Of a stretch of DNA of 32,499 nt, positions 4,522 through 32,499 are shown piece after piece. The notes under the pieces are model-generated. The model did no database searches. It saw nothing but the letters and a program-made list of their open reading frames with translations, and was not told the DNA's origin. Made by a program: the position numbers and the translations under genes. Positions within the stretch are counted from its first letter, which is position 1. Each line of letters begins with the position of its first letter. The DNA comes from Planctomyces sp. (lineage in GTDB: Bacteria; Planctomycetota; Planctomycetia; Planctomycetales; Planctomycetaceae): assembly GCA_027483405.1 (NCBI GenBank), contig JAIXUU010000293.1, positions 1-32,499 of the forward strand, given 5' to 3'.

Positions 4522-4547
4522 CATGCTTGCGGCCCCGAGCAAGCATG
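4522..4547. repeat. CATGCTTGC palindrome (family B), copy 1
   Basis: Perfect arms CATGCTTGC / GCAAGCATG enclose the 8-nt loop GGCCCCGA. The same design recurs at 6842, 6908 (inverted) and 32421. It lies 25 bases after the stop of the DUF115-like gene. Confidence 0.75.
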
Positions 4548-4577: not shown

Positions 4578-4671
4578 AGGGTGTTGGGTGTTTGGAATTT
4601 GGTATTCGGTATTCGGTGTTTGGTGTTTGGTTTTGGGAAGTTGGTAGTTGGGTGTTGGGTATTGGGTGGCA
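4578..4671. repeat. G/T-rich low-complexity tract
   Basis: Short GTGTTGG, GGTATTCG and GTGTTTGG units repeat irregularly, with almost no C on the + strand. Related strings occur at ~1630 and ~6957 (complement) and at ~12115. The reverse-strand ORF through it encodes only NTQ/TPN-like low complexity and is not a gene. Confidence 0.55.
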
Positions 4672-4753
4672 CGTCCCTGAAGCCCCAAAAAAATCAAAAC
4701 AGTGCGCAAGGGCGTGGTCTTTACGCTCTCAAACTCTCTTTTGATGTCCAGCC

Positions 4754-4786
4754 GGGTGGCCCGGCCAACTCGTGGCCGGGTTGTCG
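4754..4786. repeat. GGGTGGC-flanked hairpin (family C)
   Basis: GGGTGGCCCGG is followed by a perfect stem CCCGGCCA / TGGCCGGG around the loop ACTCG, then TTGTCG. It is the same architecture as 16421-16460. Confidence 0.55.
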
Positions 4787-4863
4787 TGCGAAAGCAAGAC
4801 AACAAGAAGCCGCGCCATGCGTTCAACCTGCCACGCACCATTCATTCTACGACCCGTCCAACT

Positions 4864-6841: not shown

Positions 6842-6867
6842 CATGCTCACGGCTCGGAGTGAGCATG
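6842..6867. repeat. CATGCTCAC palindrome (family B), copy 2
   Basis: Perfect 9-bp arms CATGCTCAC / GTGAGCATG enclose the 8-nt loop GGCTCGGA. Both arms carry the same compensated change relative to copy 1 (TTGC to TCAC, and GCAA to GTGA), so base pairing is conserved. Confidence 0.7.
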
Positions 6868-6907: not shown

Positions 6908-6933
6908 CATGCTTGCTCCGGGCCGCAAGCATG
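6908..6933. repeat. CATGCTTGC palindrome (family B), copy 3, inverted
   Basis: Arms CATGCTTGC / GCAAGCATG enclose the loop TCCGGGCC, which is the reverse-complement orientation of copy 1's loop. With copy 2 it forms a head-to-head pair between convergent genes. Confidence 0.7.
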
Positions 6934-8425: not shown

Positions 8426-8544
8426 CTTGCACTATTCCTTAGATCATCAAATCTGATCAATCCCTCAACCTCCCTGAGCGCCCCGTCAAAATATCAGTCC
8501 CGCACAAGATCGGCTAGTGCGTCTCCTCGCGGAAGAACTCTTTC

Positions 8545-8598
8545 GGGAACCCTCGCCCGCGTCTTCGAGGGAGTGTGCCGGTTGAAGGGCTTTTCTCT
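8545..8598. repeat. Interspersed repeat family A, copy 5 (diverged)
   Basis: GGGAACCCTCGCCCGCGTCT is followed by GGGAGTGTGCCGGTTGAAGG. It fills part of the 221-bp gap between sthA and the next upstream minus-strand gene. Confidence 0.6.
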
Positions 8599-8646
8599 AT
8601 CTCTTTGTGCCGAACATCTCATAGCCACGGCAGAACAATGCCGGCA

Positions 8647-12148: not shown

Positions 12149-12207
12149 CCTCTGGAACTCTCGCCCACGTCTGCGTGGGAGAGGGCAGCGTGAGGGTCTT
12201 CTCCCCA
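12149..12207. repeat. Interspersed repeat family A, copy 6
   Basis: TCCTCTGGAACTCTCGCCCA is followed by CGTCTGCGTGGGAGAGGGC and GCGTGAGGGTCTTCTCCCC. The inner CTCTCGCCCACG / CGTGGGAGAG can pair. It lies between convergent genes. Confidence 0.75.
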
Positions 12208-12423
12208 TCTCTAAAACGTCTTGATCAGGCTTCACGCCACGCTTGCAGCTCCTTTTGAGTGAATACCGAGCAAGCATGTTCATCGCCTTCTCAAGGGTGC
12301 CATGCACTGCATGTCCAAAATCAGAACACTGCAAAAGGGCGTGGTCGTTAAGAACTTCAACGTCACTTGCCCTGTCAGCCTGCATAGCGTTCACGATCAA
12401 GCGACCGCCGCCGCAAATGATCA

Positions 12424-16350: not shown

Positions 16351-16372
16351 GTAGGGCAGGATCCCGCCTGCC
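16351..16372. repeat. GTAGGG-led hairpin (family D-like)
   Basis: GTAG followed by stem GGCAGG / CCTGCC around ATCCCG. It lies ~50 bases after the LRR stop and could act as its terminator. Confidence 0.45.
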
Positions 16373-16420: not shown

Positions 16421-16460
16421 CGGGTGGCCCAGACGTGGCTCTGCACGTCTGGGTGACGCC
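16421..16460. repeat. GGGTGGC-flanked perfect hairpin (family C), best copy
   Basis: GGGTGGC leads into perfect 10-bp arms CCCAGACGTG / CACGTCTGGG with loop GCTCTG, then TGACGCC. A degenerate copy lies at 21875-21914. It is ~75 bp upstream of a transposase remnant of the type that mobilises REP elements. Confidence 0.75.
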
Positions 16461-16527
16461 AGTCACGAGAAAATCGTCATGCAAAATACACGAATTCCCG
16501 TAGAACGCCCCGGCTGATACTCTGTTT

Positions 16528-16661
16528 TCTATCAGAATGGTCGATCCGCTCAAGCACGGCCTGATGAACCGCGTCACCGATAAGCCTTGGAGTTCATTCC
16601 ACGTTTCGCGCGGGCGGACGAATACTCGCTGAATTGGGGGCCGCACGAATCAATGGAGTAG
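16528..16661 (+). pseudogene. Remnant of a REP-associated tyrosine transposase (RAYT), C-terminal end
   Basis: From 16537 one frame reads VDPLKHGLMNRVTDKPWSSF, matching the conserved RAYT segment NP(V/L)KHGLV-x-R...W-x-x-SSFH. After the SSFH codons the reading must shift by one base, as if a C were lost at ~16601. The next frame (16602-16661) then continues RFARADEYSLNWGPHESME and stops at TAG, which is the expected SSFHR(F/Y)-R-x-G-x-Y-x-x-(D/N)WG ending. Only ~40 codons survive; the catalytic HUH histidines and the tyrosine would lie upstream and are gone. RAYTs recognise REP-type hairpins, and a perfect one sits just upstream. This is visible only by joining frames, so the ORF track does not show it. 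Confidence 0.72.
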
Positions 16662-16864
16662 CAACGAATTCAGTGATCTTGAATGATGGCACGAAAAGAA
16701 GCTGGTGGCTTGCGCAAAGCCTTAAACTACCCTGCGGGGATCACGGTTAACTGTTCGCCCTCCCCCGAGGCTGTTGATTCCCCGGGTGGCAGCTCAACAA
16801 GGACTCGTTATCCACCAGCGGCTGTGACATACATCACTGGCATCCATCTGAGGGAGAATCGCCG

Positions 16865-21874: not shown

Positions 21875-21914
21875 AGGGTGACCAAGACGTGGCACTGCAC
21901 ATCTGCGTCACGAC
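21875..21914. repeat. GGGTGGC-type hairpin (family C), degenerate copy
   Basis: GGGTGACCAAGACGTGGCAC aligns base for base with the 16421 element but has several unpaired changes in the second arm (CACATCTGCG). Confidence 0.55.
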
Positions 21915-31935: not shown

Positions 31936-32499
31936 CCCCGCTGGTGATGCGTTTCAGGCCAGACGATTGCCACAGCAACAATCAGAGTAACTTTGCACGG
32001 CTCGCAAAAAAAGACCGCCATCGCCATCCTGAGGGGGAAAGGATGACGATGGCAGTCAGTGGACTTGATGCCGAGGTTATTGGACAGGTTGCGGGGCCTG
32101 CACAATTCAGGGCATCAATTCCATCCAAAACGGTCAACATCAGGTGATGATCAGCTCGAGCCTGCTGAAAACGAACGTCATTCAGGCTTAAGCGGGGAAG
32201 GCAGGCAGAAGGTCAGACTCATACGCAGGAAATAGAACCTTCCTGAGTGATACAGACCGTTCTTTCATCGCTAAGTATCGGGAAGGTGGTCGTCACGCAT
32301 CGGCAAAATCTGCGGAATTCCACCCTTGCCGAATACAACCTGCCCACCGGATGTAACGATTCTAAGGAATCTTCGCGTCAGAAATCGGCTGACTTATGGC
32401 TCAGGCACTGTGCTATGTGCCATGCTTGCAGCTCTGGGCAAGCATGGCTTCTTCAACCAACACTTCGCTATATTGTCATTAAAAGCGATTTATCGCTTC
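31936..32499. other. Terminal intergenic stretch
   Basis: Apart from a family B hairpin at 32421-32446 I see no gene, RNA or promoter I can support in the last 564 bases. The short ORFs there have no domain. Confidence 0.5.
32421..32446. repeat. CATGCTTGC palindrome (family B), copy 4
   Basis: Perfect arms CATGCTTGC / GCAAGCATG enclose the loop AGCTCTGG. The flank GTGC before the arm matches the 4522 copy (CGTGC). It is ~28 kb away from copies 1-3, so the family is dispersed over the chromosome. Confidence 0.7.

Follow-up and report, generated by a model that had tools for sequence, protein, structure and literature searches.

A RAYT gene relic in a Planctomyces genome lies beside a REP that probably belongs to another RAYT clade

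Introduction

TnpA-REP enzymes cut single-stranded REPs at CT, and a Marinomonas enzyme of group 3 has been reported to cut at both CT and CA (PMC8266576). The four-base head of the REP takes part in the choice of the cleavage site, with T2 and G4 of the head being linked to CA, and the REPs of Escherichia coli need a bulge (PMC8266576). GTAG REPtrons are known from Planctomycetes too (PMC3733652).

Here, we analyzed a stretch of 32,499 nucleotides from Planctomyces sp. (hereafter the window), which corresponds to contig C373 in a draft genome of 5.36 Mb and 487 contigs. An earlier note on this stretch, made from the letters alone, had described a broken RAYT C-terminus downstream of a perfect 10-bp hairpin with a GGGTGGC lead, and had regarded the broken gene as a possible source of the repeat family next to it. 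The positions of the gene relic, of the hairpins around it and of a second REP of the same architecture are listed in Table 1.

Table 1. Positions of the features at the locus and of a related REP in the window
Feature	Position	Strand	Description
Clade B type REP, 51 bp	16422..16472	+	Head GGGTGG, main hairpin, second hairpin, tail
Main hairpin, perfect 10-bp stem, 6-nt loop	16428..16453	+	Directly after GTGG
Second hairpin TGAC-GCCA-GTCA	16454..16465	+	Abuts main stem; folds so; stem covaries across species
Spacer	16473..16535	+	63 bp; forms, with the REP, the left part of a ~195-bp repeat that recurs on contigs C429 and C289
RAYT C-terminus relic, assigned to clade A	16537..16686	+	Begins past the lost catalytic Tyr; 2 frame changes, 1 in-frame stop
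Decayed GTAG-headed hairpin GCAGGGTAGTTTAAGGCTTTGCGCAAGCCACCA	16703..16735	-	4 mismatches to GTAGGGTGGGTTAAGGCTTTGCGCAACCCACCA
Two-hairpin clade B type REP	4754..4808		GGGTGG, stem CCCGGCCA/TGGCCGGG, second hairpin, CAAGA

Results

The RAYT relic and its own GTAG hairpin

The presence of a broken RAYT C-terminus at the locus was confirmed. The first frame (16537-16605) reads MVDPLKHGLMNRVTDKPWSSFH and the second frame (16596-16659) ends in RFARADEYSLNWG, and alignment with intact copies revealed that one base has been lost at the junction, just as the earlier note had proposed. A second frame change, due to an extra base near 16636, was also detected, and the true end of the gene (EFSDLE followed by the ancestral TGA at 16684-16686) lies past the limit set in that note. 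In the profile search that the note had suggested, the joined peptide scored 48.7 bits with a profile of intact clade A RAYTs (10.8 bits with the clade B profile and 15.2 bits with the clade C profile), which places it among the RAYT/TnpA-REP proteins by homology to REP-associated Y1 transposases. Tiles over the relic gave the only strong RAYT-profile match in the whole window (4e-8, the runner-up being at 0.07), and tblastn with an intact RAYT from a sister species matched the same region (6e-14). Pfam and NCBIfam scans of the 41-aa piece alone returned no match, because this piece lies mostly beyond the cores of the models. The HuH motif and the catalytic tyrosine are absent from the relic, both falling in the lost 5' part. 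Given the further shift in frame and an in-frame stop, the copy is dead, a non-working remnant of a RAYT. In itself, such a remnant is ordinary.

The RAYTs of this genome and its relatives form three clades (support 100/100 for clade A, 100/99 for clade B and 94/88 for clade C), and sequence comparison assigns the relic to clade A. Intact clade A RAYTs are flanked by inverted GTAG-headed hairpins, which are close to both ends of the gene in the better-preserved cases. Within the genus this hairpin is GTAGGGTGGGTTAAGGC..GCGCAACCCACCA, and in other genera the stems differ and the pairing is kept. At the bounds of the relic, the left end is lost and a decayed GTAG hairpin is found at the right end, in the same place and orientation as in intact clade A copies, and we take it to be the right-end REP of the relic's own REPtron. 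The hairpin folds poorly by itself now; in the congener G002, the frame of the relic's ortholog is broken in the same way, and the GTAG hairpin in the expected place (C1:77712-77744) is perfect. Nine copies of the GTAG family with at most 3 mismatches were found in the genome of the window, which yielded no intact RAYT of clade A. The GTAG-GGTGGGTT family was the relic's own and is left without an intact RAYT in this genome. The suggestion that the relic was the source of one repeat family of the window is thus borne out in part, as the relic points to the GTAG family rather than to the GGGTGGC family.

Other remnants of this kind were observed in the genome. Contig C464 carries a clade A RAYT relic that is nearly complete and has a GTAG hairpin at either end (25.8-26.4 kb), with additional decayed copies ~1.2-1.5 kb away, and another C-terminal RAYT relic, on contig C27, scored best with clade A.

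The GGGTGGC REP and its second hairpin

The perfect hairpin with a GGGTGGC lead was present upstream of the RAYT piece, with a gap of 84 bp from the end of the REP (16472) to the relic. The main hairpin has a folding energy of -15.3 kcal/mol as DNA (z -3.7), and the tail of the element reads CGAGAAA against the family consensus CAAGAAA. The genome contains ~35 copies of this REP, 23 of them with at most 3 mismatches to the consensus, and the family thus shows the many dispersed copies and the hairpin with a GT[AG]G foot that are expected of a REP.

In REPs of the clade B type, a 4-bp stem with a short loop lies directly 3' of the main stem and is usually followed by CAAGA. Among 77 distinct elements, gathered by anchoring on the head, the main stem and CAAGA, the second stem was perfectly paired in 67, while randomly dealt partners gave 20.7 on average and never more than 34 (1000 trials). 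Eight different second-stem sequences were found, such as TCGC/GCGA, TGAC/GTCA, TGCC/GGCA, TGGC/GCCA and TTGC/GCAA; the second stem of clade B REPs covaries. A search for the two-hairpin pattern in 30 genomes gave matches in 14, and the reversed control pattern gave 0.

Related hairpins had also been noticed at 1377, 4754 and 21875. The element at 4754 has the same two-hairpin architecture, with a longer second hairpin on direct reading (TTGTC..GACAA, then CAAGA), and the one at 21875 belongs to this family in a decayed form. The element at 1377 shares the GGGTGGC lead only, its stem being another one and the second hairpin being missing, so its inclusion in the family is unsupported.

The window contains further repeats. 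A hairpin family GTGCCATGCTTGC..GCAAGCATG occurs at 4522-4547, 6842-6867, 6908-6933 and 32419-32448, including one inverted pair ~40 bp apart (REPIN-like), and a repeat with the palindrome CCCTCGCCC..GGGCGAGGG has four copies (468-527, 1281-1340, 8541-8600 and 12149-12208). The GGGTGGCACGTCCCTG..AAGGGCGTGG elements at 4664-4715 and 12317-12361 resemble the hairpin beside a clade C RAYT on contig C384.

Association of the GGGTGGC REP with clade B RAYTs

An intact clade B RAYT is encoded on contig C214 (NCBIfam REP_Tyr_transpos, 118.1 bits, cut-off 80), which keeps the HuH motif and the tyrosine (DHVH and YLHLNP). Three copies of the GGGTGGC REP surround this gene and lie on both sides of it, including one upstream and one inverted directly downstream, so inverted copies flanking a RAYT are found for the GGGTGGC family. 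The ortholog in the congener G001 (89% identical) shows the same arrangement. Clade B RAYTs of other genera are accompanied by GGGTGGC or GGGTAGC hairpins with other stems, and two more distant clade B loci in a genome of another family (G069) carry inverted GGGTGGC hairpins with the CAAGA tail. Within ~350 bp, seven of eight clade B loci have a two-hairpin GGGTRGC REP, and the 23 loci of clade A or C all lack one (P-value = 3e-6, Fisher test, which overstates independence as the loci are related within clades). Across 30 genomes, the presence of clade B RAYTs was associated with the presence of the REP pattern (P-value = 0.0035, uncorrected for relatedness). Near clade C RAYTs, GGGTGG hairpins are often present, but lack the second hairpin and the tail. 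Thus, the GGGTGGC lead alone identifies no family.

The association has exceptions. The genome G022 contains 26 REPs of the clade B type and the genome G003 (88% complete) contains five copies of the 51-bp REP, with no clade B RAYT detectable in either; the partner may have been lost, the gene may have been missed, or the REPs may be used by another RAYT. At the scale of the phylum, five genomes gave a clade B match at E < 1e-38, and four of these lacked the strict REP pattern, partly because tails or stems depart from the pattern; with a sparse sample, a strict pattern and varying tails, co-occurrence across the phylum is uninformative. Head-outward pairs of two-hairpin REPs ~60 bp apart (REPIN-like) were observed in G022, for example at C10:82086 and 82201, 2697272 and 2697385, and 3082467 and 3082579.

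These results bear on the earlier proposal that the GGGTGGC hairpin is the relic's own REP and that the relic is the source of that family. In three species the REP lies next to the relic, and this REP copy is among the least diverged ones, both of which would be consistent with the proposal. However, intact copies of the relic's type carry GTAG hairpins on their flanks rather than the CCCAGACGTG two-hairpin REP, this REP lies on both sides of the intact clade B RAYT of the same genome, and the REP with its spacer is found elsewhere without a RAYT. The note had itself named intact RAYTs flanked by unrelated hairpins as grounds against its pairing, and the GTAG flanks come close to that. We therefore strongly disfavour the proposal and consider it very improbable. 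The clade B RAYT on C214 is instead likely the mobiliser of the GGGTGGC family, as its flanks suggest.

Structure and age of the chimeric locus

On contigs C429 and C289, the REP and the 63-bp spacer start a ~195-bp repeat that runs on into different sequence, and no RAYT profile match was obtained at these two loci. Since REP and spacer occur there without a RAYT, the locus in the window is a chimera, in which, near 16536, the left piece of the ~195-bp repeat gives way to the right-hand piece of a clade A REPtron. The spacer was also considered as a decayed 5' part of the RAYT, and this was rejected, given the missing profile match at the two other loci and its place in the ~195-bp repeat. 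All three congeners have an additional hairpin with a GTAG head (GTAG GGCAGG..CCTGCC, 16351-16372) about 50 bp to the left of the GGGTGGC element, and the locus is a REP cluster.

A chimera might also have arisen by transposition of a clade B REP into a clade A RAYT gene, which was broken thereby. The junction does fall inside the RAYT gene, and REPs inserted in tnpA-REP genes are known for subclass 2.4 (PMC6006769), but the 5' part of the RAYT was not found to the left of the REP, and the spacer of the larger repeat intervenes. An insertion would therefore need at least a larger rearrangement or deletion in addition, and we regard it as unlikely.

In G001 as well as in G002, where identity is 94% over 1.7 kb, the syntenic locus has the same REP, spacer and missing base, so the break is older than the split of the three congeners. 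The extra base near 16636 is common to G002 and absent in G001. Such conservation of the remnant at a syntenic locus in three species, with the sequence mostly unchanged between the genome of the window and G002, might point to a frameshifted remnant kept for a function as a small peptide or RNA element. Yet the entire neighbourhood in G002 is 94% identical, the segment in G001 is only ~85% identical against 96% for the neighbouring gene, and the frames and stops differ, which leaves retention for function extremely unlikely.

Discussion

Our reading builds on homology, flanking order, clade assignment, a frameshift common to three species and the covariation of the second stem. We consider it very probable that the relic is a clade A RAYT with its own GTAG hairpin, that the GGGTGGC REP belongs to the clade B family with the C214 RAYT as its likely mobiliser, and that the locus is chimeric. 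On this reading, what remains at the locus is the right-hand half of a dead REPtron of clade A, comprising the end of a gene for a RAYT, a Y1, HuH single-strand transposase, and the right-hand GTAG hairpin. The left half with the catalytic centre has been lost, its place being taken by the left part of an unrelated repeat with a clade B REP, and the junction near 16536 may have been made by deletion or by repeat-mediated rearrangement. The protein encoded on C214, we infer, both cuts the GGGTGGC REP and spreads it.

More speculatively, the near-constant CA directly after the second hairpin could be the cleavage dinucleotide. Since the GTGG head retains the T2 and G4 that are tied to CA, the CA of CAAGA is a candidate site, which might be chosen through these two bases, in the way reported for the group 3 enzyme of Marinomonas, and positioned by the second hairpin. 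It is conceivable, although we would not call it probable, that the clade B RAYTs of Planctomycetes have a REP class of their own, with a GGGT(A/G)G head, a main hairpin, a short second hairpin that adjoins it and is kept by compensatory change, and a tail containing the CA at which cleavage takes place, with the second hairpin holding this site in position. The two-hairpin REP thus yields a simple cleavage-site prediction.

The locus illustrates that nearness alone misassigns repeats to transposases, the correct partner having been reached only via intact relatives. One genus holds three RAYT clades, of which two differ clearly in REP format, and REP recognition can therefore be compared inside one bacterial group. 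Moreover, the dead clade A lineage and its leftover GTAG repeats provide a case of a REP family outliving its enzyme in its own genome, older than the split of the three congeners.

Compared with the TnpA-Y1 subclasses of Quentin et al. (2018; PMC6006769), clade B likewise has HVH (mostly DHVH), mostly WQ and mostly Y-H-NP, and the stem of its REP likewise follows immediately on a GT[AG]G foot. The REP types given in the text of that study are short, long, long with bulge, double foot and atypical, and an abutting second hairpin with a CAAGA tail is not among them. Nor was this architecture found in the main text of the literature checked, so its novelty is provisional; the two-hairpin REP departs only modestly from known kinds. 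Clade A resembles the REPtrons described by Di Nocera et al. (2013; PMC3733652), which have GTAG-tagged palindromes at the RAYT ends; GGGTGGC is absent from the main text of that paper. The E. coli TnpA-REP (RAYT group 2, subclass 2.2; PDB 4ER8) differs from the window in that the copy here is dead and that the stems and loops are different. Its GTAG REPs and those of clade A are alike in the GTAG head and in the inverted flanking hairpins. Clade A is of the E. coli TnpA-REP kind: an intact clade A member from G002 matches 4ER8 at 4e-39, in an alignment that spans the C-terminal segment surviving in the relic.
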